Origin: Paraburkholderia sp. SOS3
GTDB lineage: Bacteria > Pseudomonadota > Gammaproteobacteria > Burkholderiales > Burkholderiaceae
Length of the DNA stretch: 64,000 nt
Assembly (NCBI RefSeq): GCF_001922345.1
Contig: NZ_CP018812.1
Coordinates: 1,550,001-1,614,000, forward strand
Reading direction: 5' to 3'
Position 1 is the stretch's first letter. Each line of letters begins with the position of its first letter. The notes beneath the pieces were generated by a model. That model made no database searches, was not told the DNA's origin, and saw nothing but the letters and a program-made list of their open reading frames with translations. Shown in pieces: positions 6,495 through 22,387 of the stretch. The translations under genes were made by a program, and so were the position numbers.

Positions 6495-6719
6495 ATGGAT
6501 TTCGTATCTCTGGCGCTGCTTGCCGTTGGTTTCGTGGGTCTCGGCGCTGCCGCGACCGTTTTGCTGACTAATATGGTTCCGCTGCATGTTGCATCGCTCG
6601 CCGCGAAGCACGGTCGGTACGCTGGCCTCGCGGGCGCTCATGGCGACGCGATCGTGCAGGCACCGGTCCGTGCATCCGTTAAGAAAGAGGCGATGAATGT
6701 CGTCGGAACTTCAAACTGA
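6495..6719 (+). CDS. Small membrane protein preceding gntR
   Basis: A 74-residue ORF. MDFVSLALLAVGFVGLGAAATVLL gives one transmembrane helix, followed by a short polar tail. I chose the ATG at 6495 because GGAG stands 6 bases before it; the in-frame ATG at 6483 lacks a ribosome site. Its 3' end overlaps the gntR start by 23 bases, which implies translational coupling. I do not recognise a family. Position upstream of the regulator suggests a sensory or transport accessory role, but this is only inference. Confidence 0.5.
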   Translation: MDFVSLALLAVGFVGLGAAATVLLTNMVPLHVASLAAKHGRYAGLAGAHGDAIVQAPVRASVKKEAMNVVGTSN

Positions 6720-7419
6720 AAACGTAGTGGCCTCGCCGTTGACGCTGGCGCTGCAACCTATCAATGCGAGCGCCAGCTTGCGCGACCAGGCCTATGCGAT
6801 GTTGCGCCAGGCGATTGCCGACGCGGACATCTATCAGTCGAAGGACGAAATACGGCTCGACGAGCGTTTGCTTAGCGAAACGCTCGGCGTGAGCCGCACG
6901 CCGGTGCGTGAAGCGATGACGCTGCTCGAGCAGGAAGGCTTTCTGCGCATGGTGCCGCGGCGCGGTATCTATATTGTGCGCAAGAGCAAGCGCGAAATCG
7001 TCGAGATGATCCAGATGTGGGCGGCGCTCGAGAGCATGGCCGCGCGCCTCGCCACGTTGCATGCCACCGACGAGGAAATCGCGCGGCTGCGCCATATGTT
7101 CGACAGCTTCCGCGACACGACGCCGGCCGAGCATATCGCCGAATATTCGGACGCGAATATCGCGTTTCATCAGGCGATCGTCGAGTTGTCGAAGTCGCAG
7201 ATGATTCTCGAGACGATCAAGAATGTCTTTATTCATGTGCGCGCGATTCGCCGGCTGACGATCTCGCAGAGCGACCGCGCGTCGCGCTCGATCGTCGATC
7301 ATCTGCGCATTATCGAGGCGCTCGAACAGCGCGATACCGAACTCGCCGAGCGGCTCGTGCGGCAGCATTCGCTCGATCTTGCGGACTTCATCGAGGCGAA
7401 TTGCGATTTTCTTGATTGA
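6697..7419 (+). CDS. GntR-family transcriptional regulator (FadR/FCD subfamily)
   Basis: A 240-residue regulator. The N-terminal winged helix (residues about 28-95) contains LDERLLSETLGVSRTPVREA, the standard GntR recognition helix. The C-terminal FCD domain, all helical, holds the metal/effector ligands D..H and later H positions (DANIAFHQAIV, IVDHLRIIEAL, VRQHS). Such proteins bind short palindromes and respond to organic acids. It sits between the transporter and sucCD/frc, and repeats of one palindrome lie in all the relevant promoters, so I infer it controls this locus. The start has GAAAGAGG 6 bases upstream. Confidence 0.92.
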   Translation: MSSELQTENVVASPLTLALQPINASASLRDQAYAMLRQAIADADIYQSKDEIRLDERLLSETLGVSRTPVREAMTLLEQEGFLRMVPRRGIYIVRKSKREIVEMIQMWAALESMAARLATLHATDEEIARLRHMFDSFRDTTPAEHIAEYSDANIAFHQAIVELSKSQMILETIKNVFIHVRAIRRLTISQSDRASRSIVDHLRIIEALEQRDTELAERLVRQHSLDLADFIEANCDFLD

Positions 7420-7595: not shown

Positions 7596-8474
7596 TCAAA
7601 GCCCACGCAGCGCCTGCACCATCGTTTCACCAAGCGCCGCCGGCGATTGCGAGACGTGAATCCCCGCTGAGCGCATCGCGTCGATTTTCGCGCTGGCCGT
7701 TCCCTTGCCGCCCGAGATGATCGCGCCCGCGTGACCCATGCGGCGGCCCGGCGGCGCACTGGTGCCGGCGATAAAGCCGACCACCGGCTTTTTCGTGCGC
7801 GCCTCCTTGAGAAACTGCGCGGCGTCTTCTTCGGCGGAGCCGCCGATCTCGCCGATCATGATGATGCCGTGCGTATCGTCGTCGGCGAGAAACATCTCGA
7901 GGCAGTCGATGAAATTCGTCCCGTTCACCGGATCGCCGCCGATGCCGATGCAGGTGGTTTGTCCAAGGCCCGCGGCCGTGGTTTGCGCCACCGCTTCATA
8001 GGTCAGCGTGCCCGAACGCGATACGACGCCGATCTTCCCCGGCCGGTGAATATGGCCGGGCATGATGCCGATCTTGCATTGCCCCGGCGTGATCACGCCG
8101 GGGCAGTTGGGCCCGATCAGGCGCGTGTCCGAGCCGGCGAGCGCGCGCTTGACGCGCACCATGTCGACGACGGGAATGCCTTCGGTAATGCAGACGACGA
8201 GCGGCACGTGCGCGTCGACGGCTTCGAGAATCGCATCGGCGGCGACGGGCGGCGGCACATAAATAACCGATGCGTTCGCACCCGTCGCATCGACGGCATC
8301 GGCGACGGTATCGAACACCGGCAGCCCGAGATGCATCGAGCCGCCTTTGCCCGGCGTCACGCCGCCGACCATTTGCGTGCCGTACGCGAGTGCCTGTTCG
8401 GAATGGAAGCTGCCTTGCGACCCGGTGAAGCCCTGGCAGATCACTTTGGTATTGTGGTCGATCAGAACGGCCAT
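7596..8474 (-). CDS. sucD: Succinate-CoA ligase-type alpha subunit (NDP-forming)
   Basis: A 292-residue alpha subunit of the succinyl-CoA synthetase family: CoA-binding Rossmann domain ([13 protein letters not shown] near residue 12) and ligase domain with the phospho-histidine loop GHAGAIIS near residue 250. Start chosen at [10 protein letters not shown], one nucleotide after the beta-subunit stop (TGAcATG), so both subunits are coupled. A catabolic copy inside an oxalate locus is unlikely to be the housekeeping TCA enzyme. It could activate succinate or malate (as in the MtkAB malate-CoA ligase of methylotrophs), which sequence alone cannot decide. Confidence 0.9.
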
Positions 8475-8475
8475 G

Positions 8476-9735
8476 TCAGTGTGCTCCCGAGTGTTGAACG
8501 GCGGCGGTTTGCTTCGGCGCCTGCGGTTGTGCGTTGTCGTTCGCTTTCTGGCGAATCGAGGAGACGACCTTGTCGGCCGCATCGGCAAGATGGTCGGCGG
8601 ACAAGATCGGCAAACCGGAGTCGCGCAGAATCTGCTTGCCGGGTTCGACGTTCGTGCCTTCGAGGCGTACCACGAGCGGCACGCGCAGATCGATCTCGCG
8701 CGCGGCGCTGACGACGCCTTCCGCGATGACGTCGCAGCGCATGATGCCGCCGAAGATATTGACGAGGATCGCTTCGACTTTCGGATCGCGCAGAATCAGC
8801 CGGAATGCGGTCGCCACCCGTTCCTTCGTCGCGCCGCCGCCGACGTCGAGAAAGTTCGCCGGCTCGCCGCCGTAGAGCTTGATGATGTCCATCGTCGCCA
8901 TGGCGAGGCCGGCGCCGTTGACCATGCAACCAATGTTGCCGTCGAGCGTCACGTAGTTGAGCCCGTGTTTTGCAGCTTCGAGTTCGGCCGGATCTTCTTC
9001 GGCCTCGTCGCGCAGCGCTTCGATCGACGGATGCCGGAACAGCGCGTTGTCGTCGAAGTTGATCTTCGCATCGAGCGCTACGACGTCGCCCCACGCGGTC
9101 ACGACGAGCGGATTGATCTCGACGATCGACGCGTCGAGTTCGACGAACGCGCGGTACGCATTCAGAATGAACTGCGTCGCCGACTTGACCTGACTGCCGG
9201 CGAGGCCGAGACCGAACGCGATCTTTCGCGCGTGGAACGGCTGCAGGCCAGTGGCCGGATCGACCGCAACTTTCAGGATCTTTTCGGGCGTGCGCGCTGC
9301 GACCTCCTCGATTTCCATGCCGCCTTCGGTCGATGCCATCACGGTGATGCGCGATGTTGCGCGATCGATGAGCATGCCGAGATACAGCTCGCGCTCGATC
9401 GCGCAGCCTTCCTCGATATAGACGCGCTTCACCTCGCGGCCGGCCGGACCCGTCTGCTTTGTCACGAGCACCGACGACAGCATCTGCGCCGCGTTCTGCG
9501 CGACCTCGTCGACTGTCCTGACGACGCGCACGCCGCCCGCGCCATTGGGATCGTTCGCAAAGCGGCCCGCACCGCGGCCGCCCGCATGAATTTGCGATTT
9601 GACGACCCACAGCGCGCCGCCGAGTTCGCGTGCCGCCGCGGCCGCTTCTTGCGGCGTGAACGCGACGCGGCCGTTCGGCACGGCGACGCCGTAGCCTCTC
9701 AGCAGTTCCTTCGCCTGATATTCGTGAATGTTCAC
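8476..9735 (-). CDS. sucC: Succinate-CoA ligase-type beta subunit (ADP-grasp)
   Basis: A 419-residue beta subunit. The start is GTG ([12 protein letters not shown]) with GAGGAG just upstream; longer in-frame starts lack a ribosome site and the family begins exactly here. The ATP-grasp domain reads [14 protein letters not shown] near residue 50, and the C-terminal part reads FLDVGGGAT and [10 protein letters not shown], with the CoA-ligase motif. There is a 20-residue Gln/Ala/Pro tail beyond the family's usual end. It resembles the MtkA/alphaproteobacterial SucC group more than the short E. coli type. It is expressed from a promoter mirrored with frc. Confidence 0.9.
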
Positions 9736-9808: not shown

Positions 9809-9837
9809 ATGGTATGTGATATATCAGAACGGTTCAA
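9809..9837 (-). promoter_or_regulatory. Predicted sucC promoter with operator in its spacer
   Basis: On the minus strand, TTGAAC (-35, 9832-9837) and TACCAT (-10, 9809-9814) are separated by exactly 17 bp. That spacer contains TGATATATCACA (9815-9826), nearly the whole GntR-type palindrome. A bound repressor would block RNA polymerase. Confidence 0.65.
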
Positions 9838-10192
9838 GGGACTAGGGTGGTCGGTATTTTCCCTCGGTTGCGCGTCCAGCGCGCCGGAAAACCGAGCGCA
9901 AAACCTTGCCAGTAAAGGACTTGACGCAATTCAAGCTTGCGCGCCGCAGCATCAAAATACGCTTGATGCATTGTGATATATCACATACCGTATTGATCGG
10001 GGCATGCGAGATGCGCGTCGTGTACGAGGCCTGGCAAGACCGGCTACGTCCGCGGTAACCGCCAGATAACGCATAGGAGACAACTTATGTCCGCTAGAGT
10101 TTTATCCCCCAGTACCGGCATCGGAGGCCGGCATCGCGCACTGCCCGTTTCATCCGACCATGAACAGGTGAAGCAAGGGAAGGAGACAAATC
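9838..10192. promoter_or_regulatory. Divergent intergenic region sucC / frc
   Basis: About 355 bases without a supported gene. It contains the frc promoter-operator and a leader of about 200 bases before frc. AAGGGAAGGAGACAAATC supplies the frc ribosome site. The sucC operator lies just inside the left border. Confidence 0.7.
9963..9991 (+). promoter_or_regulatory. Predicted frc promoter with operator in its spacer
   Basis: On the plus strand, TTGATG (-35, 9963-9968) and TACCGT (-10, 9986-9991) are separated by 17 bp holding the perfect 14-bp palindrome TGTGATATATCACA (9972-9985). The arrangement is a mirror image of the sucC promoter 130 bp away, so both are likely to be controlled by the same regulator. 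Confidence 0.65.
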
Positions 10193-11440
10193 ATGGCTAA
10201 GGCACTCGACGGTGTGCGCATTCTCGATTTCACGCATGTGCAATCCGGACCGACCTGCACGCAGCTGCTCGCATGGTTCGGCGCCGATGTGATCAAGGTG
10301 GAGAGGGCCGGTACCGGCGACGTGACGCGCGAGCAGCTGCGCGACATCCCGGACGCGGACAGCCTTTACTTCACGATGCTCAATCACAACAAGCGGTCGG
10401 TAACGATCGACACGAAGAACCCGGAAGGCAAGAAGGTTCTCGAAACGCTGATCAAGACCTGCGACGTGCTCGTCGAAAATTTCGCTCCGGGCGCGCTCGA
10501 TCGCATGGGCTTCACATGGGAGCGCATCCAGGAACTCAATCCGCAGATGATCGTCGCGTCGGTGAAGGGCTTTGGTCCCGGGCCGTACGAGGACTGCAAG
10601 GTCTACGAGAATGTCGCGCAATGCGCGGGCGGCGCGGCATCGACGACCGGTTTCGACGATGGTCCGCCGGTCGTGACCGGTGCGCAGATCGGCGATAGCG
10701 GCACCGGCCTGCATCTCGCACTTGGCATCGTGACCGCGCTGTTCCAGCGGACAAAGACGAATCGCGGCCAGAAGGTGCTCGCCGCGATGCAGGACGGCGT
10801 GCTGAACCTGTGCCGCGTGAAGCTGCGCGACCAGCAGCGTCTCGCGCGCACCGGCGTCATGAAGGAATACCCACAGTATCCGAACGGCACCTTCGGCGAG
10901 GCCGTGCCGCGTGCCGGCAATGCGTCCGGCGGCGGCCAGCCGGGGTGGATCCTCAAGTGCAAGGGCTGGGAAGCGGACCCGAACGCTTATATCTACTTCA
11001 TCACGCAGGCGCCTGTGTGGGCGAAGATCTGCAACGTGATCGGCAAGGAAGAGTGGGCGACCGATCCCGACTATGCGACGCCGGCCGCGCGTCTGCCGCA
11101 CCTCAAGGAAATCTTCGCCGAGATCGAACGCTGGACGATGACGAAGACGAAGTTCGAGGCGATGGATATCCTCAACAAGTACGACATTCCGTGTGGTCCG
11201 ATTCTGTCGATGAAGGAGATCGCCGAAGACGAATCGCTGCGCAAGACAGGCACGATCGTCGAAGTCGATCATCCGGTGCGCGGCAAGTATCTGACCGTCG
11301 GCAATCCTATCAAGCTGTCCGATAGCCCCACGGATGTCACGCGCTCCCCGTTGCTGGGCGAGCACACCGACGAAGTGATGACCGAGCTCGGCTATTCGGC
11401 GCAACAGATCGCGGCGTTGCGTACCGCGGGTGCGATCTGA
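10193..11440 (+). CDS. frc: Formyl-CoA:oxalate CoA-transferase
   Basis: A 415-residue class III CoA-transferase that moves CoA from formyl-CoA (or another donor) to oxalate, giving oxalyl-CoA in the cytosol. It aligns from memory along its whole length with E. coli Frc: [21 protein letters not shown] at the N-terminus, catalytic Asp168 in GDSGTGLHL (E. coli Asp169), and the mobile glycine loop at 245-249, here SGGGQ instead of GGGGQ. AGGAGA precedes the ATG. Oxalyl-CoA decarboxylase, the usual partner, is absent from the window. The next gene encodes an NDP-forming CoA ligase. Confidence 0.95.
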
Positions 11441-11475
11441 GCCGCAGTGGTCCGATTGGACGAAGTTCGATAGCG

Positions 11476-11520
11476 GAAGCCGACAGGCGCGCGTGTTCAC
11501 GTGTCGCCTGTCGGCGCTTC
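11476..11520. promoter_or_regulatory. Strong hairpin between frc and the acyl-CoA synthetase gene
   Basis: GAAGC-CGACAGGCG pairs with CGCCTGTCG-GCGCTTC with a 2-nt bulge and a 15-nt loop. No T-run follows, so it is more likely an mRNA processing or stability element between two operon genes than a terminator. Confidence 0.5.
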
Positions 11521-11587
11521 AGTTGGTGTTTTAACCGGCAATTGGCAGGCCGGGCGGCTTCATAACCAGAATCGGAGACATGACGAT

Positions 11588-13780
11588 ATGGCACACGAAG
11601 ACTCCCCCTCGCTGCGGGAACGCGGCGGCGCTCACTCGTCCGACAAGGCGGTTGCGCCGAACAAGGCCGTCGTGCAGCACATCCTCGATAACGTAAAAGA
11701 GGAAGGCCGAAATTCGCTGACGGCGCCGGAAGGCAAGCTTGTATGTGACGCGTACGGCATTGCCGTGCCGAAAGAAGGGTTGGCGACCGACGCGCACGAG
11801 GCCGCGCAGATCGCGGCGCAAATGGGTTTCCCGGTGGTGCTGAAGATCGTGTCGCCCGAAATCCTGCACAAGACGGAAGCGGGCGGCGTGCTGGTCGGCC
11901 TCAAGAGCGAAGCCGAAGTCGAGCGTGGCTTCGCGACGATCATGGACAACGCGAAGCGCTATAACGCGAGCGCGAACCTGCACGGCGTGCAAGTGCAGCA
12001 GATGGTAGGCGGCGGGCAGGAAGTGATTGTCGGCGCGGTAAGCGACCCGTCGTTCGGCAAGCTCGTTGCGTTCGGCCTCGGCGGCGTGCTCGTCGAAGTC
12101 CTCAAGGACATCACGTTTCGTCTCGCTCCCGCGACGCGCGACGACGCGCGTTCGATGCTCGACAGCATCGCCGCGGCGGAGATTCTGAAGGGCGTGCGCG
12201 GCGGCGATGCGGTCGACCGCGAAGCGCTTGCGGCACTGATCGAAAACGTCTCGCGCCTCGTTTCCGACTTTCCGCAGATCTCCGAGCTCGACCTGAATCC
12301 GGTTTTCGCGAGCAAGGACGGCGCGATCGCGGCGGACGTGCGCATCGTGCTGGATTTCGCGCCGCCGGCGCCGCGTTACCGGCCGAGCCAGCAGGACATC
12401 GTGCGGCAGATGAACCGCATCATGCGGCCCGACCGCATTGCGGTGATCGGAGCGTCGGCCGAAGACGGCAAGATCGGCAACTCCGTGATGAAGAACCTCA
12501 TCAACGGCGGTTATCAGGGCGAGATTCTGCCGATTCATCCGAAGTCCGAAGAGATTCTCGGACGTAAGGCTTACAGAAGCGTGCTCGACGTACCGGGTGA
12601 TATCGACGTCGCGGTGTTTGCGATCCCGGCGAAATTCGTCGCGGCCGCGCTGACCGAAGTCGGCAAAAAGAAGATTCCGGGCGCGGTGCTGATCCCGTCG
12701 GGCTTCGCCGAAACGGGCAATGTGGAAGGTCAGGAAGAGATCGTGCGTATCGCGCGCGAGTACGACATTCGCCTCATGGGCCCGAACATCTACGGCTTCT
12801 ACTACACGCCGAAGAACCTCTGCGCGACCTTCTGCACGCCGTACGACGTGCAGGGCAAGGCTGCGCTCTCGTCGCAATCGGGCGGCATCGGCATGGCGAT
12901 CATCGGGTTCTCGCGCTCCGCAAGAATGGGCGTGTCCGCGATCGTCGGTCTCGGCAACAAATCGGATATCGACGAAGACGACCTGCTGACGTTCTTCGAA
13001 CAGGACGACCATACCGAAATCATCGCGCAGCACTGCGAAGACCTGAAAGACGGACGTGCATTCGCGGAAGCGGCGGCACGCGTGTCGAAGAAAAAGCCGG
13101 TGGTCGTGCTGAAGGCGGGTCGCACGAGCATGGGCGCACGTGCGGCAAGTTCGCACACGGGCGCACTCGCGGGCAACGACCGCATCTACGAGGATGTGTT
13201 CAGGCAGTGCGGCGTGATCCGCGCGCGATCGCTGCGCGATCTGCTCGAGTTTGCGCGCGGCATTCCGAAGCTGCCGACGCCGCAGGGCGAGAACGTCGTG
13301 ATCATCACCGGCGCGGGCGGCTCGGGCGTGCTGCTGTCGGACGCTTGCGTCGACAACGGTCTTTCGTTGATGACGATGCCTGCCGATCTCGACGCGGCAT
13401 TCCGGAAATTCATTCCGCCGTTCGGCGCCGCGGGCAATCCGGTCGACATCACGGGCGGCGAGCCGCCGACCACGTACGCAAACACGATACGTCTCGGTCT
13501 CGAGGATCCGCGCATTCACTCGATCATCCTCGGCTACTGGCACACGATCATCACGCCGCCGATGGTGTTCGCGAAGCTCGTGATCGAAGTGAAGGAGGAA
13601 ATGAAAGCGAAGGGCATCGAGAAGCCAATCGTCGCGTCGCTAGCAGGCGACGTGCAGGTCGAGGAAGCGGCCGAATATCTGTACGAGCACGGCGTACCGG
13701 CTTATGCGTATTCGACTGAAATTCCGGTAGCGGTGCTCGGTGCGAAGTACAAGTGGGCGCGCGGCGCAGGGAAAATCTGA
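11588..13780 (+). CDS. Fused NDP-forming acyl-CoA synthetase (acetate-CoA ligase family)
   Basis: A 730-residue single-chain ligase of the ACD superfamily. An ATP-grasp domain comes first (residues about 30-250, GFPVVLKIVSPEILHKTEAGG). Then comes a CoA-binding domain (RIAVIGASAEDGKIGNS near 285) and a succinyl-CoA-ligase-like domain with the phospho-His in SSHTGALAG near 520. Start at ATG 11588 has GGAGAC upstream; the longer frame to 11501 lacks a ribosome site. It converts acyl-CoA + NDP + Pi to acid + NTP, or the reverse. Downstream of frc it could form formyl-CoA or oxalyl-CoA, or recycle CoA from a downstream acyl-CoA; the substrate is inferred only. Confidence 0.9.
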   Translation: MAHEDSPSLRERGGAHSSDKAVAPNKAVVQHILDNVKEEGRNSLTAPEGKLVCDAYGIAVPKEGLATDAHEAAQIAAQMGFPVVLKIVSPEILHKTEAGGVLVGLKSEAEVERGFATIMDNAKRYNASANLHGVQVQQMVGGGQEVIVGAVSDPSFGKLVAFGLGGVLVEVLKDITFRLAPATRDDARSMLDSIAAAEILKGVRGGDAVDREALAALIENVSRLVSDFPQISELDLNPVFASKDGAIAADVRIVLDFAPPAPRYRPSQQDIVRQMNRIMRPDRIAVIGASAEDGKIGNSVMKNLINGGYQGEILPIHPKSEEILGRKAYRSVLDVPGDIDVAVFAIPAKFVAAALTEVGKKKIPGAVLIPSGFAETGNVEGQEEIVRIAREYDIRLMGPNIYGFYYTPKNLCATFCTPYDVQGKAALSSQSGGIGMAIIGFSRSARMGVSAIVGLGNKSDIDEDDLLTFFEQDDHTEIIAQHCEDLKDGRAFAEAAARVSKKKPVVVLKAGRTSMGARAASSHTGALAGNDRIYEDVFRQCGVIRARSLRDLLEFARGIPKLPTPQGENVVIITGAGGSGVLLSDACVDNGLSLMTMPADLDAAFRKFIPPFGAAGNPVDITGGEPPTTYANTIRLGLEDPRIHSIILGYWHTIITPPMVFAKLVIEVKEEMKAKGIEKPIVASLAGDVQVEEAAEYLYEHGVPAYAYSTEIPVAVLGAKYKWARGAGKI

Positions 13781-13869
13781 CGCGGGCCGGATCGTTGTGT
13801 GTGCAACAAGCGGTGGCGTGGCTCTCTCACAATCATCAGGAGCCGCGTCGCTTGCGCAACGGAGTAAGC

Positions 13870-14685
13870 ATGGAAACCTGGATGCGTTTTGTGTCGAGTG
13901 ACGGTCGTATTGTGTTCGGCAAGGTGGACGGCGCGGATCTGCATGAGCACCTGAGCCTCGAACATCCGGTGCCGACCGGTGCGGTGCTGCCGGTGCGCGC
14001 GCTCAAACCTTTGGCGCCATGCGCGCCGCGAAAAGTGATCGCGCTGTGGAACAATTTCCATGCACTGGCTGCGAAGCTCGAAAAGCCGGTGCCCGCGCAT
14101 CCGCTCTTTCTGATCAAACCCGCTGAATCGGTGATCGGTGCCGAGGAGCCGATTCTGCGGCCCGCGCACTATGCGGGGAAGATCGCCTACGAAGGCGAAC
14201 TGGGCATCGTGATCGGCAAGCGCTGCCGCAATGCGAGCGTCGAAGAAGCGGGCGCCTCGATTTTCGGCTACACGATCGTCAACGACGTGACGGCCGCGGA
14301 ACTGCTGAACGAGAATCCGCATTTCCCTCAATGGTGCAGAGCGAAAGGCTTCGATACTTTCTGTTGTATCGGCCCCGCGATCGCAACGGATTTCGACTGG
14401 CGCTCGGCAAGTGTCGTGACGACACTCGAGGGTGTCGAACGTCAGAACTATCCGCTCTCCGATATGGTGTTCACGCCGGCAGAGCAGGTCAGCATGATTT
14501 CCCAGGATATGACGCTGGAGCCCGGCGACGTCATCGCCTGCGGCACGTCGCTTGGCGTCGGCTCGATCAAGGATGGCGCATCGGTGTCGGTCACGATCGC
14601 CGGGATCGGCACCTTGACGAACCGGCTCGCGGCAGCGGGCGATAAGGTGCGGCAAGCTGCAACTGCCGCCGCCGGCGCGGTTTGA
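13870..14685 (+). CDS. Fumarylacetoacetate hydrolase family protein
   Basis: A 271-residue protein of the FAH superfamily. The metal-binding core is seen as KIAYEGELGIVIGKRC and later NDVTAAELL, with the C-terminal LEPGDVIACGTSLGVGS. Family members hydrolyse C-C bonds in 1,3-diketo acids or decarboxylate oxaloacetate. Start at ATG 13870 follows GGAGTAAGC. It lies 89 bases after the acyl-CoA synthetase on the same strand, so it is probably in the frc operon. In this setting oxaloacetate decarboxylase or a hydrolytic step on a glyoxylate-derived product is possible but unproven. Confidence 0.88.
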   Translation: METWMRFVSSDGRIVFGKVDGADLHEHLSLEHPVPTGAVLPVRALKPLAPCAPRKVIALWNNFHALAAKLEKPVPAHPLFLIKPAESVIGAEEPILRPAHYAGKIAYEGELGIVIGKRCRNASVEEAGASIFGYTIVNDVTAAELLNENPHFPQWCRAKGFDTFCCIGPAIATDFDWRSASVVTTLEGVERQNYPLSDMVFTPAEQVSMISQDMTLEPGDVIACGTSLGVGSIKDGASVSVTIAGIGTLTNRLAAAGDKVRQAATAAAGAV

Positions 14686-14729
14686 TACGGCATGGAAAGA
14701 AGATCGGTAATACGGATCGTGGAGACAAC

Positions 14730-15503
14730 ATGCCGAATGGAATGGCCGATTCCGGTCAGCGAGATATCAGTGAAGTGAGCGGCAGGCGGCAATCGATGGT
14801 TGCACTTGCAACAATCGGCTGCTGCATCGTGGGCCTTGCGTCGCTCGCCGGTGGCTTTGCGCGATATTTTTCGTCGGCGGCGATATGGACGGCGAGGGAT
14901 AGCGGCGAACGCATCGGTCTTTACATCGCCGTGTTTGCCGGCGCGTTACTGCTGTCCGCGTCGGCGATCGCATTCTTCAGACTACGCAATACGATGCGCG
15001 ACGCAGTGCACGCGCATATCAGCGCATGTCCGGGCTGTGCGGTGGTCGATTTTGTCGCATTGTTGTTGTGCGTCTGGCTCGGCTATGGCTTCGTGACGGA
15101 AGCATCGCCGGCCATCGGGTTTGCGGTTCTGCTGGCCGCGGGCGGTCTCGCAGCCGCATTGGGCGTGCATCTCGCGATGACGGTCGATGATCGCTATGGT
15201 TTGCTCCATGCAGCAGCGCATGGCCGCCGGCAGCACACCGCGCAGGCGGCGCGCACGCGGTGCGGCTCAGCGCGGTGGCGCGAGGCGCTGTTTCGCGTCG
15301 AATGGCGTGCCGATGTCATGGACGCACAGGCTGCTGACGATTTCACACAGCGCTGGACGTTGACGGTTGCATCGAAGCGCCGCGGCGGCGGTATGAACAT
15401 TGGCAGCCCGTCGCGCGTTCGTGTACGACGTCACTGCGGGCAGCGCGTGCGCAGCCACATGCACGCCAACACACACGCCCGTAACCGGAGCCTCGCGCGA
15501 TGA
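14730..15503 (+). CDS. Hypothetical membrane protein
   Basis: A 257-residue ORF with GGAG 6 bases before ATG. Residues 1-150 contain four hydrophobic segments (around 22-45, 65-85, 105-125 and 128-150). The last 100 residues are Arg- and His-rich and unlike a membrane protein, so the reading frame may be shifted near 15190 or the true protein may be shorter. I do not recognise a family. It follows the FAH gene in the same direction and may be the last gene of the frc operon. Confidence 0.5.
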   Translation: MPNGMADSGQRDISEVSGRRQSMVALATIGCCIVGLASLAGGFARYFSSAAIWTARDSGERIGLYIAVFAGALLLSASAIAFFRLRNTMRDAVHAHISACPGCAVVDFVALLLCVWLGYGFVTEASPAIGFAVLLAAGGLAAALGVHLAMTVDDRYGLLHAAAHGRRQHTAQAARTRCGSARWREALFRVEWRADVMDAQAADDFTQRWTLTVASKRRGGGMNIGSPSRVRVRRHCGQRVRSHMHANTHARNRSLAR

Positions 15504-15589
15504 AGCGATGTCCGCGCGGATCTGATCGGCATGAACGGGCGCTCGCGATAGCGCACCGGTTAGCCAATGCTCGCGCGGTGCCGGCCGCA

Positions 15590-15892
15590 TTATTCGGCGG
15601 CTGCTTCGCGGTAAAACTCAGACTTCTTCTGGAAAATCAGCTGAGCGAGAAAGTCGGCGTCGTACGCCTTCAGCAGATGCGCATGGAACCGCTCGATATA
15701 GGCGGTGATACGCGCGATTTCGCTGTTGAATTCCTGCTTCAAGACGTCGAGCGTTTCGCTGTCCCAGCGAAAACGCAGACCGAGGTCGCTGAAAGCGCTG
15801 TTGTACGCGCACAGGCTGGGATCTTCGGGGCTGTTCGCGGCGACGCGAGCAGCGGGCGAAGCGGTGAGCGTGGCAACCGAAGTGTGATTCAT
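15590..15892 (-). CDS. Conserved-looking small soluble protein in the oxalate locus
   Basis: A 100-residue ORF starting MNHTSVATL with CAGGAG upstream. Its middle and C-terminal half read as an amphipathic helical domain (LRFRWDSETLDVLKQEFNSE then ITAYIERFHAHLLKAYDADFLAQLIFQKK). I do not recognise the family. It lies 3' of a LysR gene on the same strand and has its own upstream palindrome. Codon use is normal for the region, which supports a real gene. Confidence 0.65.
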   Translation of the reverse strand: MNHTSVATLTASPAARVAANSPEDPSLCAYNSAFSDLGLRFRWDSETLDVLKQEFNSEIARITAYIERFHAHLLKAYDADFLAQLIFQKKSEFYREAAAE

Positions 15893-15977
15893 GGCGGGAC
15901 TCCTGAGCTGGCGAGTGATAAGACTCGCCTCAAGCATAGAAGCCCTGATGGATTTGCAATAGTTAAAGTTTTATTTG

Positions 15978-15993
15978 GATTCCATATGGAATC
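15978..15993. promoter_or_regulatory. Perfect 16-bp palindrome upstream of the small protein gene
   Basis: GATTCCATATGGAATC lies 86 bp upstream of the 100-residue protein's start and overlaps the stop of the LysR gene. An AT-rich stretch with a possible -10 lies between it and the gene, so it is positioned like an operator. Confidence 0.5.
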
Positions 15994-16936
15994 ACTTATG
16001 GGTGATCAGCCGCGTGACGCGCGTGATCTCTTCTATATGATTAGCGCCTTCTTCCATCAGGAACTGTTTGAACGCGACCGCGACGGGCGGCAGGCGCTTG
16101 TTCTTCCGGTGGACGACGTACCAGTTCAGCATTACGGGAAAACCCTCGACATCGAGCACCGTGAGATGGCCGACCTGCAATTCGAGGCTGATCGTGTGCG
16201 CGGAGAGGAAGGCGATGCCCATGCCGGCGATCACGGCCTGTTTGATCGTCTCGGTGCTCTTGATCTCCATGGCGATCTTCAGGTTCGTCAGGCGTCCCGC
16301 GAAGCCTTCCTCCATCGAATTCCAGGTGTCCGAGCCGCGCTCGCGCACAACGAACGCTTCCTCGGCGAGCTGCGCCATCCTGATGTGACGTTTGCCCGCC
16401 AGCGGGTGGTTCGGCGGCGCGACGATCACATACGGGTGCGGCGCGAACGCTTCGTTGATGGCATCCATTTCGTGCGGCGGGCGAACCATCACCGCAAGGT
16501 CCGTCTGGTTCGTCGCCAGTTGATGCAGCAGTTCCTCGCGGTTATGCACCGCAAGGTTCAACTCGACGCCCGTGTAGCGGCGCGTGAATTCGGCGAGCAA
16601 CCGCGGAAAGAAATAGTCGCCCGCACTGATCACAGCGACGTTCAGCTTGCCGCCCGAGACGCCCTTAAGCTGACTCATCGCTTCGTCGACTTCGTGGAAC
16701 TGCTGGATGATCGTCCGGCTGTAGTGAAGCATCTCGTTGCCGGCTGTCGTCAGATAGATCTTTTTGCCGAGTTGTTCGAAGAGCGGCAGGCCCGCGTGCT
16801 CTTCGAGCTGCCTGACCTGGGTGGACACTGCGGGTTGCGTCAGATGAAGTTCTTCCGCGGCGCGGGAAAAACTCAGATGCCGGGCGACAGTCTCGAACAC
16901 CTTCAACTGGCGGAGTGTCGCGTTTCTCATCGTCAT
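15992..16936 (-). CDS. LysR-family transcriptional regulator (CbbR-like)
   Basis: A 314-residue regulator. The N-terminal HTH reads LRQLKVFETVARHLSFSRAAEELHLTQPAVSTQVRQLE, typical of LysR and close to CbbR. The C-terminal effector domain has VISAGDYFFPRLLAEF and GMGIAFLSAHTI. Start at MTMRNATLR keeps the usual distance to the HTH. It is divergent from the oxlT gene 375 bp away, the classic LysR arrangement, so it probably controls that antiporter in response to oxalate or a product. Confidence 0.92.
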   Translation of the reverse strand: MTMRNATLRQLKVFETVARHLSFSRAAEELHLTQPAVSTQVRQLEEHAGLPLFEQLGKKIYLTTAGNEMLHYSRTIIQQFHEVDEAMSQLKGVSGGKLNVAVISAGDYFFPRLLAEFTRRYTGVELNLAVHNREELLHQLATNQTDLAVMVRPPHEMDAINEAFAPHPYVIVAPPNHPLAGKRHIRMAQLAEEAFVVRERGSDTWNSMEEGFAGRLTNLKIAMEIKSTETIKQAVIAGMGIAFLSAHTISLELQVGHLTVLDVEGFPVMLNWYVVHRKNKRLPPVAVAFKQFLMEEGANHIEEITRVTRLITHK

Positions 16937-17310
16937 GGCCGATGTATAAGCTGGAATGAATCGACATGGTAACAAGATTTAATTATCCGTAATTCAGCAA
17001 TGACCCTAGCATCAACCTAAATGGCGGCGTCTGCCTGTGTACATTGGGTTTACAGCTTGCTTGATGCGCGGGTTAACGCTTAGGCCCAGAATGAGGGCGT
17101 CGAAGCTGAAACAGAGCTTGCCTGAATGTTTGGGTCGCTGATTTTTTTGGACCGACGGAATGACGCCTGGCGTCTGACCGTTTGCGTATAGCAGTGAACC
17201 GGCAGTTGCCGTTTTTAGACCCGGCGTAACGATCGGGGTAGAACTACAAAGTGGCATGCATGTAATCCGGCAATCCGGCCGGTTGCAGAAAACATATCGG
17301 AGACAAAGCA
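16937..17310. promoter_or_regulatory. Divergent region between LysR gene and oxlT
   Basis: 374 bases without a gene. An inverted repeat AATTA-TCCG-TAATT at 16981-16994 has the T-N11-A style of LysR sites and lies about 45 bp from the LysR start, a usual autoregulation site. AACATATCGGAGACAAAGC gives the oxlT ribosome site (CGGAG). Confidence 0.5.
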
Positions 17311-18648
17311 ATGGAAGACATCTCTCGGCAGGCTCCGGCCCCCGCGTTCTGGCGGAACCGCTGGTGCCAACTCTTCGTCGGCATCTTGTGCATGGCGCTG
17401 GTCGCCAATCTGCAATACGCGTGGACGCTATTCGTCGCACCGATGAACGCGCGTCATCACTGGGGCCAGGCTTCAATCCAGCTTGCGTTCTCCATCTTCA
17501 TCCTGACTGAAACGTGGCTCGTTCCACTGGAGGGTTATCTCGTCGACCGGTTCGGTCCGCGTCCCGTCGTCGCGGTTGGGGCGCTTTGCGCAGGACTCGC
17601 CTGGGTAATGAATTCGTTTGCGACCACGCTTCCCGAGTTGTATGCGGCAGCGGTCATCGCGGGTATCGGTGCGGGCGGCGTTTATGGCACTTGCGTCGGC
17701 AATGCGCTAAAGCTGTTCCCGGATCGTCGCGGTCTCGCAGCGGGTTTGACCGCAGCGGGCTTCGGCGCGGGTGCGGCCGTGACGGTCATTCCGATTGCGA
17801 ACATGATCACGGCGCAGGGCTACGAGCACACGTTCCTGTTCTTCGGCATCTTGCAGGGCGTGGTGATTTTCATCCTCTCGATGCTGTTGAGGAAGCCTGA
17901 AGCGCACAAGGGGCCGGCGATCAAGCGCAAGTTCGCGGTGTCAAAGACCGACTACACGCCTGGCCAGATGATCAAGGCGCCGGTGTTCTGGGTCATCTAC
18001 GTGTGCTTCGTCGCGGTTGCGGCGGGCGGCCTGATGGCGACAGCGCAAATCGGTCCGATCGCGAAGGACTTCGGTCTAGCCAAGCTTCCGATGACGTTGT
18101 TCGGCGCAACGTTGCCGCTGCTCACGATGACGCTGTCGATCGACAATATCTGCAACGGCTTCACGCGTCCGCTGTGCGGCTTCATTTCGGACAAGATCGG
18201 ACGCGAAAACACGATGTTCGCGATTTTCATCGGCGAAGGTCTCGCGCTTCTCGGGCTGATGGAATACGGCACGAATCCGTATGCGTTCATGACGTTCGCC
18301 GCATTGATCTTCCTGTTCTGGGGCGAAATCTTCTCGATCTTCCCGGCCATTTGCGCGGACACGTTTGGCAGTAAATTCGCCGCATCCAACGCGGGCACGC
18401 TGTACACCGCGAAGGGCACCGCATCGCTGCTCGTGCCGGTCGCATCGGTGCTTGCGGCGACGGGCGGCTGGAATCTCGTGTTCATCGTGTCGGCGGTGAT
18501 CACGATCGCGGCCGGCGTCTCGGCGAAGTTCGTGCTTGCGCCGATGCGTGCACGCTGGATCGAGGCGAGCGACCCGCTCGTGAGCGACGCCACCAAAAGT
18601 GGTGGCCCGTCACGACTGAGCACGTGGCCCGAGCAAACGGGCGAGTAA
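17311..18648 (+). CDS. oxlT: Oxalate:formate antiporter
   Basis: A 445-residue MFS carrier with 12 predicted helices. It keeps both cationic residues that bind the dicarboxylate in Oxalobacter OxlT: Arg286 in NGFTRPLCGFISDKIGREN (OxlT Arg272) and Lys368 in TAKGTASLL (OxlT Lys355). It should import oxalate in exchange for formate or another carboxylate. Divergent LysR gene upstream; second LysR gene 102 bases downstream. The C-terminal 30 residues are a polar tail. The earlier OFA transporter in this locus lacks the Lys, so this is the better oxalate importer. Confidence 0.93.
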   Translation: MEDISRQAPAPAFWRNRWCQLFVGILCMALVANLQYAWTLFVAPMNARHHWGQASIQLAFSIFILTETWLVPLEGYLVDRFGPRPVVAVGALCAGLAWVMNSFATTLPELYAAAVIAGIGAGGVYGTCVGNALKLFPDRRGLAAGLTAAGFGAGAAVTVIPIANMITAQGYEHTFLFFGILQGVVIFILSMLLRKPEAHKGPAIKRKFAVSKTDYTPGQMIKAPVFWVIYVCFVAVAAGGLMATAQIGPIAKDFGLAKLPMTLFGATLPLLTMTLSIDNICNGFTRPLCGFISDKIGRENTMFAIFIGEGLALLGLMEYGTNPYAFMTFAALIFLFWGEIFSIFPAICADTFGSKFAASNAGTLYTAKGTASLLVPVASVLAATGGWNLVFIVSAVITIAAGVSAKFVLAPMRARWIEASDPLVSDATKSGGPSRLSTWPEQTGE

Positions 18649-18750
18649 TGACGTAAATGAGGACGCAAATGAGCCGGCCTGCAATCGAGCCGTAACTCGC
18701 GGCAATCACAGGTCGGCCATTTCGCCTCACAGGAGCCAAGCGGCGTACAC

Positions 18751-19779
18751 ATGAACGTTTCATTGCAGCAACTGAAGGTGTTCGTCGCTGTCGCGCGCCA
18801 GCGCAGCTTTACGCGCGCCGCGCGCGAGTTCGATCTGACGCAGTCGGCGGTAAGCCGCTGCGTCCGCGAACTCGAGGAAGCAATCTCGTTGCGACTGTTC
18901 GATCGGACCACGCGCCAGGTCGAACTGACGCTGGCCGGCGCGAGCCTTGCGCGGCGCATCGGGCAACTGCTCGACGAAATCGATCTGACATTGCGCGAGG
19001 AGCGCGCGGCACACCACGGCCATACGGGCGTCGTCACCGTCGCGAGCAACCCTGTGCTGTCGTCGAGCTGGATACCTGAATGCATTGCCCGTTGCGCGAC
19101 CGTCTTTCCCGGACTTGTCGTCGATGTCAAAGATGAGCCGCAAGACGCCGTGCTCGCTAGTGTCGATCAAGGCGATGTCGATTTCGGCGTCGTCTCGGAC
19201 TTCGACGTGCACAGCAACGATACCTTGCTGGCCCACCCTCTATTTTCCACCCCTCTTTGCGCGGTTCTGCCCGACACGCACGCGCTGGCCCGCGGCACGA
19301 CGCTGATGTGGAGTGCGCTCGGCGACGCGTCGCTGATCACGCTCAATGGCGACGCCGGCAGCCGTGGCGCGGTCGAGCGCGGGATCGGTGCGCACCGTGT
19401 GCACGTGCGGCGCATGCAGGAATGCGGGCACGTCGCGGCGGTGATGCGCATGATCGAACTGGGGCTCGGAATCGGCGTGCTGCCGGTTGGCGCACACTGG
19501 CCGGCGCCCGCCGCGCGGCTCGTGGCGCGTCCCTTGCTGCCCGAAGTATCGTTCACGACGATGCTCGTGCGGCACCGCAACCGGACCTTGCGGCCCAATG
19601 CCGAAGCCGTGTGGTCGCTCTTCTGCGACCGCGGTCGCGCACCGGGCCGCACATCCGGTACGGCGCGCGCCGACGGACATGTGTCGTCCGAGCCTGCAAC
19701 GGCCGCGCCTGCGCCCGTTGCATCTGCGCCGGCCGCATCCGCTGGCGCAGCGCCGCTGCGTACGTCCAGACAAGCCTGA
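18751..19779 (+). CDS. LysR-family transcriptional regulator
   Basis: A 342-residue regulator, HTH at residues 1-60 (QLKVFVAVARQRSFTRAAREFDLTQSAVSRCVRELE). The effector domain starts at about 90 and its middle reads VDFGVVSDFDVHSNDTLLAHPLF. The last 45 residues are an Ala/Pro-rich tail beyond the normal LysR end. An AGGAGCC ribosome site precedes ATG. It is followed on the same strand by an aldehyde dehydrogenase gene, so it may regulate it. Confidence 0.9.
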   Translation: MNVSLQQLKVFVAVARQRSFTRAAREFDLTQSAVSRCVRELEEAISLRLFDRTTRQVELTLAGASLARRIGQLLDEIDLTLREERAAHHGHTGVVTVASNPVLSSSWIPECIARCATVFPGLVVDVKDEPQDAVLASVDQGDVDFGVVSDFDVHSNDTLLAHPLFSTPLCAVLPDTHALARGTTLMWSALGDASLITLNGDAGSRGAVERGIGAHRVHVRRMQECGHVAAVMRMIELGLGIGVLPVGAHWPAPAARLVARPLLPEVSFTTMLVRHRNRTLRPNAEAVWSLFCDRGRAPGRTSGTARADGHVSSEPATAAPAPVASAPAASAGAAPLRTSRQA

Positions 19780-19834
19780 AAAAAAAGTCGACGCTTCGGT
19801 AGGCCCGGGATCTGTCTTTGCAAGGAGTACAACC

Positions 19835-21286
19835 ATGGGCACTGAATCCGACCTTCGGCAGCACGATCTGCTAATCAATGGAGAGCGCGTGCCGCCCACG
19901 AGCGGCGAATACTCGGTCGATGTCGACCCCGCCACTGAACAGCCGATTGCGCGCGTCGCGCGAGGCAACGCCGCGGATGTCGACGCTGCGGTGCGCGCGG
20001 CACGCGCGGCGCTTCCCGTCTGGAACGGCATGCGTGCGGGCGAGCGCGCGCGCATTCTCACGCGCTTTGCCGATCTGCTGCGCGAGAATCAGCACGAAAT
20101 CGCCGAACTCGAAAGCCTCGACGGCGGAAAGCCGATTTCCGGGGTATTGCGCCAGGATATTCCGGCTGCGATCGATACGCTCGCGTACTACGCGGGCTGG
20201 TGCGACAAGATTCACGGCGAAGTCGTGCCGGTCCGGCCCGACGCGCTCACTTATACAGTGCGCGAGCCCGTCGGCGTTGTCGCCGCGATCGTGCCGTGGA
20301 ATTTCCCGCTGATGATCGGCATGTGGAAAATCGCGCCGGCGCTCGCGTGCGGCTGCACGCTGATCGTGAAGCCCGCGGAAATCACCCCTCTATCGGCGCT
20401 TCGCGTGGCTGCGCTCGCGCTCGAAGCGGGCGTGCCACCGGGCGCATTCAACGTCGTGACGGGCAAGGGCAGTGTAGTCGGCGATGCACTCGTCGCGCAT
20501 CCGGGCGTCGATAAGGTGACGTTCACCGGTTCGCCGTCGGTCGGTCGAGGCATTCTGCAGGGCGCGGCGAGCAACTTCAAACGCGTCACGCTGGAACTCG
20601 GCGGCAAGTCGGCGAACGTGATCTTTCCCGATGCGAATCTCGACAACGCCGTGCGTGCGGCAGCATCGGGCGTGTTTTTCAATACGGGGCAGGTGTGCTC
20701 GGCAGGCTCGCGCATTCTTGCGCATCGAGATGTCTACGATGGTGTCGTCGAGCGCCTCTGCGTGCGTGCGCAGTCGATCAAGGTAGGTGACCCGGCGCAG
20801 CGCGAAACGGGCATGGGACCGCTGATTTCCGATGCGCAGATGAAAACGGTGCTTGGTTATATCGAAGTTGGCAAGAACGAAGGCGCGTCGCTCGTGACAG
20901 GCGGCACGCGAATCGGCGAGCGTGGTTATTTCGTCGAACCGACTGTTTTTGCAAACGTCGAGCATGAGATGCGTATCTCGCAGGAGGAGATCTTCGGACC
21001 CGTTGCAAGCGTGATCAGATTCGACGACGAGGCCGACGCGATCCGGATTGCCAACGGCACGCCATATAGTCTCGCGGCAGGCGTATGGAGCGCCGATATC
21101 GGCCGCGTGCATCGCGTTGCGCATGCACTCCGGGCGGGCACCGTCTGGATCAATACGTACGGCTATACCGATGTGCGTTTGCCATGGGGAGGGGCGGGCG
21201 ACTCGGGCTTCGGCCGCGAACACGGGGACGTCGCAATCGAAAACTTCACGGAGCCGAAGTCGATCTGGCTCGCAATCGATCATTGA
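19835..21286 (+). CDS. NAD(P)-dependent aldehyde dehydrogenase
   Basis: A 483-residue ALDH-superfamily enzyme. NAD-binding VPWNFPLMIGMWK near residue 150, catalytic Glu in LELGGKSAN near 250, catalytic Cys in NTGQVCSAGSR near 285, and the C-terminal LPWGGAGDSGFGRE. Start at ATG 19835 has AAGGAG 7 bases upstream; the longer upstream frame overlaps the LysR gene and is a shadow. Nearest broad match is betaine/aminoaldehyde-type ALDH. In this locus it may oxidise an aldehyde acid such as glyoxylate or a semialdehyde; the substrate is not visible. Confidence 0.9.
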   Translation: MGTESDLRQHDLLINGERVPPTSGEYSVDVDPATEQPIARVARGNAADVDAAVRAARAALPVWNGMRAGERARILTRFADLLRENQHEIAELESLDGGKPISGVLRQDIPAAIDTLAYYAGWCDKIHGEVVPVRPDALTYTVREPVGVVAAIVPWNFPLMIGMWKIAPALACGCTLIVKPAEITPLSALRVAALALEAGVPPGAFNVVTGKGSVVGDALVAHPGVDKVTFTGSPSVGRGILQGAASNFKRVTLELGGKSANVIFPDANLDNAVRAAASGVFFNTGQVCSAGSRILAHRDVYDGVVERLCVRAQSIKVGDPAQRETGMGPLISDAQMKTVLGYIEVGKNEGASLVTGGTRIGERGYFVEPTVFANVEHEMRISQEEIFGPVASVIRFDDEADAIRIANGTPYSLAAGVWSADIGRVHRVAHALRAGTVWINTYGYTDVRLPWGGAGDSGFGREHGDVAIENFTEPKSIWLAIDH

Positions 21287-21409
21287 CATCAGTGATCAGA
21301 ACAGGCCGTATGACTGAATGCCCGATGGCGCGCAAATAGAACGAGCATCGAACGCAGGGCTGCGTTCGATTCCCGCCGGTCAATCATGACCTTGGACGTT
21401 CTCGTGCTG

Positions 21410-22387
21410 TTACTCGCCGCTCAACGCCATTCTTTCGCGCATCTTGACGAGCGCGAGCACCACGTCGATAGTCGGCGTCGGCTCGCCGACCAGGCGGCCC
21501 ATTTCCTGCACGACAGTGAGAAGCGGATCGATCTCCATTGGCCGGCGATGCTCGAGGTCGACGAGCGTCGACGTCTTGTGCGCACCAACCGAACCCGCAC
21601 CGTCGATGCGCCGTTCGATGTCGACGCGGAAGTGCACGCCGAGCGGCTCGGCAATGCGCTGAGCTTCAGCCATCATCGTGCGGCACACGTTGCGCGTGCC
21701 TGGATCGCCCGCGAGCAGATCGAGCGTCGCGTGCGTTAGCGCGCTAATCGGGTTGAAGCACAGATTGCCCCACAGCTTGAGCCAGATTTCATCGCGGATT
21801 TTGTCGCGAATCGGCGCATCGAAGCCGGCCGCCTGCATCATTTCATGAAGCGCCTGAATACGCGGCGTGCGCTCGCCGCTCGGTTCGCCGATCGGAAACT
21901 TCTTGCCGTATACGTGTTTGATCACACCCGGTTCGATGATTTCCGCTGCCGGATACAGCACGCAGCCGATCGCGCGTTCCGGTCCAAGCTTGTTCCATTG
22001 CGTGCCGTCCGGGTCGATGCTCGACAGCCGCGTGCCTGCGAACTTGCCGCCATGCTGATAGAAGTACCAGTACGGAATGCCGTTCACGCCGGTGATGACG
22101 GCGGTGTGCTTGCCGAGCAGCGGCTGCATCGCATCGACGACGCCCGGAACCGAGTGCGCCTTCAGCGTGATGAGCACGTAATCCTGTACGCCGAGTTCGC
22201 TCGGGTCGGACGTGCAACGAACACGCGCGGACACTTCCTCGCCGTCCATCAATACGCGTACGCCGTGCTCGCGCATTGCAGCGAGGTGCGGACCGCGCGC
22301 AACGAAACTGACATCCGCACCGGCGCGCGCGAGTTGCACGCCCATCAACGCTCCAATCGCCCCTGCTCCAAAAACACAGATCTTCAT
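21410..22387 (-). CDS. PanE/ApbA-family reductase, candidate oxalyl-CoA reductase
   Basis: A 325-residue NADP-dependent reductase of the 2-dehydropantoate 2-reductase family. Rossmann motif GAGAIGALMG is at residues 7-16. The catalytic helix RDEIWLKLWGNLCFNPISALT carries the Lys and Asn of PanE (E. coli Lys176 region). Next to frc and oxlT, ketopantoate is an unlikely substrate. In Methylobacterium extorquens AM1 a PanE-family protein (PanE2) reduces oxalyl-CoA to glyoxylate, and this gene is the obvious candidate for that step here. The function is inferred from family plus context. Confidence 0.85.
   Translation of the reverse strand: MKICVFGAGAIGALMGVQLARAGADVSFVARGPHLAAMREHGVRVLMDGEEVSARVRCTSDPSELGVQDYVLITLKAHSVPGVVDAMQPLLGKHTAVITGVNGIPYWYFYQHGGKFAGTRLSSIDPDGTQWNKLGPERAIGCVLYPAAEIIEPGVIKHVYGKKFPIGEPSGERTPRIQALHEMMQAAGFDAPIRDKIRDEIWLKLWGNLCFNPISALTHATLDLLAGDPGTRNVCRTMMAEAQRIAEPLGVHFRVDIERRIDGAGSVGAHKTSTLVDLEHRRPMEIDPLLTVVQEMGRLVGEPTPTIDVVLALVKMRERMALSGE

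Follow-up and report, generated by a model that had tools for sequence, protein, structure and literature searches.

The window examined here is a 64,000-nucleotide stretch of the Paraburkholderia sp. SOS3 genome (7.5 Mb in three contigs), covering C2:1550001-1614000, and it carries an oxalate locus in which a PanE/ApbA-family reductase gene lies near frc and oxlT. The frc gene (10193..11440, + strand) encodes a formyl-CoA:oxalate coenzyme A (CoA)-transferase (TIGR03253, 739 bits against a cut-off of 504), oxlT (17311..18648, + strand) a member of the oxalate/formate antiporter family (TIGR04259, 623 bits, cut-off 335), and the reductase gene (21410..22387, - strand; NF005089, 509 bits, cut-off 223), hereafter panE, a predicted NADPH-dependent oxalyl-CoA reductase. 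A sequence-only reading had called these three genes and quoted Asp168 of Frc and Arg286 and Lys368 of OxlT; coordinates and residues were all confirmed. Frc also has Gln17 and Tyr59 and is closest, among solved structures, to YfdW, and OxlT was aligned with the oxalate:formate antiporter 8hpj. We regard the locus as most probably (at about 0.84) one of two arms of an oxalate regulon, namely the NADPH-dependent assimilatory (reductive) one, which turns oxalyl-CoA into glyoxylate.

While frc and oxlT both exceed their curated cut-offs, the window lacks the oxc of a frc-oxc-oxlT degradation locus: none of the 12 oxc-like matches of a genome search falls within C2:1550001-1614000. The same search found two oxc genes above the family cut-off of 739 bits, both on C1, namely oxc1 (C1:809169-810833, 995 bits) and a second copy (C1:2530250-2531911, 947 bits). 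The absence of oxc is therefore local to the window locus, and a genome without oxc is rejected. Each C1 oxc adjoins its own frc, in the orders oxlT - GntR - oxc - frc - PAS - pntAB for oxc1 and frc - oxc - YfdE-like transferase for the second copy. The window frc is thus a third copy, with 71% and 65% identity to the other two.

The window and the oxc1 locus have a sequence element in common. Upstream regions were scanned for palindromes, and a 14-mer, TGTGATATATCACA, was chosen from 34 upstream sequences that include the frc and oxc1 promoters. Only two exact copies occur in the genome, one upstream of oxc1 and one at 9972..9985 of the window, ~210 bp upstream of frc, where a second predicted operator with one mismatch lies at 9815..9828. 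At ≤2 mismatches the genome has 8 sites, 4 of them in these two promoters, and a reversed-pattern control gave no sites in the genome. The two-mismatch copies outside the oxalate promoters are at C1:508627, C2:1036306, C2:1819569 and C2:2699682. The oxc1 locus has three matches at ≤3 mismatches, a number equalled in 0 of 200 shuffles; the two matches in the window were equalled in 17 of 100, and the evidence there consequently comes from the number of exact copies in the whole genome. No copy of TGTGATATATCACA lies in the second oxc locus. The GntR/FCD regulator of the window (6697..7419, + strand) shares 73% identity with the GntR regulator adjacent to oxc1; we infer that GntR-type regulators bind TGTGATATATCACA, and the two loci appear from their sequences to share a switch across two replicons.

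Across 37 scanned loci, 44 palindrome sites were found in 23, all of them ≤700 bp upstream of frc, sucC, gntR, oxc, panE or a thiamine diphosphate (ThDP) enzyme gene described below, with two of the 44 falling just within the aligned sucC start. Many of these loci also contributed to the 34-sequence discovery set, so that the two are not independent and the genome-wide count is the stronger evidence. Two Cupriavidus-type loci have a site 32 and 57 bp before panE, and a third has no such site at panE. An operator of this kind was not found in print by a narrow literature search. A regulon spanning two replicons, as the shared palindrome suggests, is directly testable.

These results bear on how oxalate is used. 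Were it consumed solely by assimilation through glyoxylate, with no decarboxylation to formyl-CoA, one would expect both the lack of oxc in the window and the linkage of panE to frc. We hold this to be highly improbable: the genome has two full oxc genes, one with the exact palindrome of the window, and Frc requires formyl-CoA, from which it takes CoA and which Oxc supplies. Growth on oxalate is also abolished by loss of frc-oxc in C. necator (PMC7486775) and by loss of oxc in P. phytofirmans (PMC3886118). The proposal of the sequence-only reading that reduction takes the place of decarboxylation at this locus fails because of the two oxc genes, and very probably is wrong; oxc1, moreover, shares the predicted operator of the window frc, a co-regulated oxc being what that reading had itself named as contrary evidence.

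The identity of the reductase is the second question. The window protein scores 166 bits on the generic PanE model, above its cut-off of 141, contains ApbA/PanE domains and retains Lys204, Asn208, Asn212 and Glu285, the catalytic residues of the family by analogy with E. coli PanE. All of this would suit an ordinary ketopantoate reductase, or another 2-oxo acid reductase, that lies near frc by chance, and residues alone were rejected as a means of separating the protein from ketopantoate reductases, the catalytic ones being common to both. However, three other PanE-family genes in the genome score higher on the generic model (274, 243 and 184 bits), so that the window gene is not the main PanE of the genome and should not be needed for pantothenate synthesis. 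In addition, 17 positions are conserved in ≥90% of 129 family proteins and found in ≤25% of 9 other PanE-like proteins; His270 occurs in 129/129 family rows and 0/9 others. Together with the linkage of panE to oxalate genes across many families, these points make an ordinary reductase improbable, and the window PanE, judged by its sequence and neighbors, probably reduces oxalyl-CoA with NADPH to glyoxylate.

The PanE proteins of C. metallidurans CH34 (75%) and of two close genomes show 74-75% identity to the window PanE, and all three show 51-53% identity to PanE proteins from five genomes in the genus of M. oxalidis. A quick tree was built from 135 of 161 usable sequences, with loci <11 kb dropped; it is midpoint-rooted and has several long branches, leaving its deep order uncertain. 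By their neighbors, 107 of the 135 loci were labeled as having oxalate genes, 11 as partial and 17 as having none, and the oxalate label is more clustered on the tree than in each of 500 shuffles, a result to which near-copies contribute. SOS3 itself has a second close PanE homolog on C1, with 38% identity, which the tree places outside the family and which has no oxalate neighbors.

Within the genus, the linkage of panE to frc is extensive. We searched 78 genomes (46 of the same genus, SOS3 included) and found a close PanE ortholog in 41/46 same-genus genomes, all 41 carriers among the 78 being of that genus. Of 44 panE copies, 38 lie ≤15 kb from a window-type frc, and the remaining 6 have no window-type frc on their contig. 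The usual layout, from 20 loci read, is gntR - (ThDP) - frc - FAH - lysR - oxlT - (lysR) - (aldehyde dehydrogenase) - panE, and oxc with a second frc is clustered with panE in 3 of the 20. The layout of the locus is real and conserved. One relative (L054, in genome G008) keeps frc, has only partial matches to panE, oxlT and pntA, and looks decayed.

Several further window genes belong to this layout. The FAH-family protein gene (13870..14685, + strand) is a recurrent neighbor of panE. A LysR regulator (15992..16975, - strand) has counterparts with 66.6 to 96% identity at 32 further panE loci, and a second LysR gene lies at 18751..19779 (+ strand). The aldehyde dehydrogenase gene (19835..21286, + strand) is kept in some of the loci fetched from the genus; its start is more likely to be near 19835 than at 19487, where the mechanical open reading frame (ORF) begins. 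An ORF at 14682..15503 (+ strand) includes a partial PntB-like stretch (35% identity over 124 aa, mainly PntB residues 98-217) and is possibly a relic, to judge from this match; pntAB of some relatives is placed close to the same position. Farther away, positions 3080-4297 encode a histidine kinase-type protein with an RsbRD_N domain.

The ThDP enzyme gene that stands next to frc in relatives (L040:13573-15336, - strand; also L046-L049, L055, L058, L102, L129, L134, L173 and L192) has no counterpart in the window. Its product falls below the NCBIfam cut-offs listed for three proteins, and its nearest solved relatives are 2-hydroxyacyl-CoA lyases (282 bits). Identification as oxc was rejected (TIGR03254, 222 and 229 bits against a cut-off of 739, in the 2 of 3 proteins where the model was listed), as was identification as gcl, there being no gcl model among the 25 of 34 or 35 families listed per protein.

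Beyond the genus, a PanE match (E 1e-75) was found in 51 of 398 Pseudomonadota genomes, at 53 places, of which 40 were fetched and 35 belong by tree to the family of the window protein. An frc, oxc, oxlT-like or oxalate-CoA-ligase-like gene lies ≤12 kb away in 28 of these 35 and in 0/5 outside the family; 6 of the 28 rest on an oxlT-like gene alone, leaving 22 without them. The in-family misses are L106, which retains sucCD, L111, L112 and L117, which retain FAH, and L113, L115 and L118. Neighbors were assigned by similarity thresholds rather than by gene-by-gene family models, with one oxlT-like gene outside SOS3 (in L055) checked against such models. Nor are the locus counts independent, as they include many congeners and the best 80 loci of a contig scan from one seed protein, five of these being from Methylobacteriaceae. 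Individual loci illustrate the associations. Glyoxylate sinks and genes for NADPH supply adjoin panE in Phyllobacterium zundukense, where a single stretch carries gcl-hyi-reductase, panE, pntAB, FAH, sucDC and frc, and in Azospirillum ramasamyi, with oxlT, panE, pntAB and gcl. The locus of C. metallidurans CH34 comprises panE, gntR, sucDC, ThDP, frc, fused ligase and FAH, and that of Duganella aceris lysR, oxlT, FAH, panE, oxc and frc. Oxalobacter paraformigenes has panE with none of the counted neighbors in range.

The genes for CoA activation beside panE vary. The window has, besides frc, accessory genes for a sucD-like CoA ligase alpha subunit (7596..8474, - strand), a sucC-like beta subunit of the succinate/malate-CoA ligase type (8476..9735, - strand) and a fused ADP-forming acyl-CoA ligase (11588..13780, + strand; start uncertain, 11501 or 11588). 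A role of these ligases and of the FAH protein in C4 flow, as the sequence-only reading proposed, is conjectural. Of the 78 genomes, 7 have the fused ligase, SOS3 among them (E 1e-200); one match (G027:C21:100498-102756) contains one in-frame TGA. Elsewhere, a ligase adjacent to panE matches the oxalate-CoA ligase 5ie0 at 416 bits, the next kind being malonyl-CoA synthetase at 198, and a second such ligase scores 409 bits to oxalate-CoA ligases and 196 to the next kind. Among 161 panE loci read, an oxalate-CoA-ligase-like gene is present in 67, frc in 41 and both in 0, a pattern rather than a test given that the loci are interrelated. Loci of the ligase type without frc in range are L097-L101, L103-L105, L107-L109, L114, L124, L125 and L128. 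In a beta-proteobacterial metagenome contig (L190), panE, fused ligase, FAH, gcl and hyi are consecutive, with no frc in the 10.5 kb covered; among genes in range there, CoA activation could be assigned to the fused type alone, and in L106 and L196 to the sucCD type alone, which could represent housekeeping copies.

Unrelated CoA-activating enzymes may thus replace one another beside panE: Frc, the AMP-forming oxalate-CoA ligase, the ADP-forming fused type and perhaps sucCD. If so, the ADP-forming ligases of the window would have a new oxalate-/formate-CoA ligase activity, and the ThDP gene of relatives would encode a further formyl-CoA or oxalyl-CoA enzyme; we offer this tentatively and consider it rather doubtful. 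Such a ligase would make Frc-driven reduction stoichiometrically possible.

In the two-arm scheme, OxlT would import oxalate and Frc would transfer CoA onto it, the accessory ADP-forming ligases perhaps supplementing the CoA-thioester pool; the PanE-like protein would then reduce oxalyl-CoA with NADPH to glyoxylate, which would enter the glycerate pathway via gcl, hyi and a glxR-like gene (C1 near 2.87 Mb). The genome's gcl (1195 bits, cut-off 711) and hyi (389 bits, cut-off 353) exceed their cut-offs, hyi also passing the 2-oxo-tetronate isomerase model, and the start of the glxR-like gene beside them lies in the stretch read. The oxidative arm, oxc1-frc1 with oxlT and pntAB (C1 near 0.81 Mb), would provide formyl-CoA that re-primes Frc and formate that may be oxidized for reducing power. 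GntR-type regulators reading TGTGATATATCACA are envisaged to activate the frc/sucCD promoter of the window and the oxc1 promoter of C1. Because formyl-CoA is the CoA donor of Frc, Frc and PanE would be expected to stall if neither Oxc nor a CoA ligase were present; each reduction of oxalyl-CoA consumes a CoA thioester, and the scheme agrees with the finding that, elsewhere, an oxalate-CoA ligase takes the place of frc next to panE. The reductase might instead run mainly in reverse, from glyoxylate to oxalyl-CoA, disposing of glyoxylate or glycolate. This is quite unlikely, for the oxlT-like and oxalate-CoA-ligase-like neighbors would feed oxalate in, and the pntAB neighbors suggest a supply of NADPH. 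The view of the sequence-only reading that the PanE-like protein is an oxalyl-CoA reductase serving glyoxylate assimilation gains support from the oxalate-gene linkage, the genome's own gcl and the effect of deleting apbA2 in C. necator (PMC7486775).

Several observations weigh against the two-arm reading. The window panE is on the opposite strand to frc, 10 kb away, and has no copy of TGTGATATATCACA at ≤3 mismatches; the palindrome is absent in 14 of the 37 loci scanned, mostly from outside the genus. Among the 135 tree loci, 28 lack all four of frc, oxc, oxlT and the ligase within range, 17 of them having no counted neighbor and 11 only FAH, gcl-type, pnt or suc genes; 22 of the 28 lie inside the family. 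The window PanE is ~49% identical to Methylobacterium homologs, which form part of a sister clade, and kinship was measured against these and the C. metallidurans homologs. Finally, the P. phytofirmans oxc mutant lost growth on oxalate despite multiple frc and antiporter copies (PMC3886118), so the reductive arm may not support growth alone.

Novelty is modest because Cupriavidus and Methylobacterium are already known to have the pathway, and its occurrence in a beta-proteobacterium is no first either: phenotypes of apbA2 deletion in C. necator appeared in print in 2020 (PMC7486775). What adds interest is the predicted operator on two replicons and the apparent interchange of CoA-activating genes next to panE. 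Those of the listed plasmid records that give the gene a name use, at least in part, the generic 2-dehydropantoate 2-reductase; recognition of the family by its neighbors and signature positions (His270) would help scans to split carbon-keeping oxalate users from oxalate burners.

The PanE2 of Methylobacterium extorquens probably belongs to the same protein family as the window PanE. In strain AM1 it is reportedly an oxalyl-CoA reductase making glyoxylate. Comparison of MtdA with the solved M. extorquens chain gave no full-length match among the genomes covered; the MtdA of the nearest candidate genome resembled that chain closely but differed from it. A PanE match occurs in 63 of 111 genomes of the M. 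oxalidis genus, one each, and 18 of these loci were read (ligase-like gene in 13, FAH in 13, oxlT-like gene in 10); unlike the window, they have no frc in range (0/18). PanE2 has also been characterized and used in vitro to convert oxalyl-CoA to glyoxylate (PMC8411744).

In comparison with the E. coli set YfdW/YfdU/YfdE, the window Frc has YfdW as its nearest solved structure, and the second oxc locus of SOS3 has a YfdE-like transferase; in contrast to the window, a homolog of oxalyl-CoA reductase is reported to be apparently absent from E. coli (PMC3720670). P. phytofirmans PsJN has an oxlT-oxc-frc cluster plus extra frc and antiporter copies, and is reported with one oxc, against two in SOS3 (PMC3886118).

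Cupriavidus offers close parallels. According to the genome paper of C. oxalaticus, that organism has a complete operon both for degrading and for assimilating oxalate, its genes not being listed (PMC9476978), and the two close genomes whose PanE is 74-75% identical to that of the window have panE with frc and oxc. Cupriavidus necator H16, like the window, has a PanE-family protein near frc: according to PMC7486775, ApbA2 is encoded near frc-oxc and is 51% identical to PanE2, cells without apbA2 doubled on oxalate in 10 h instead of 6.5 h, and deletion of frc-oxc abolished growth. ApbA2 is the probable Cupriavidus equivalent of the window PanE; unlike H16, SOS3 has the oxc on another replicon, and the window adds the fused and sucCD-like ligases and the aldehyde dehydrogenase.

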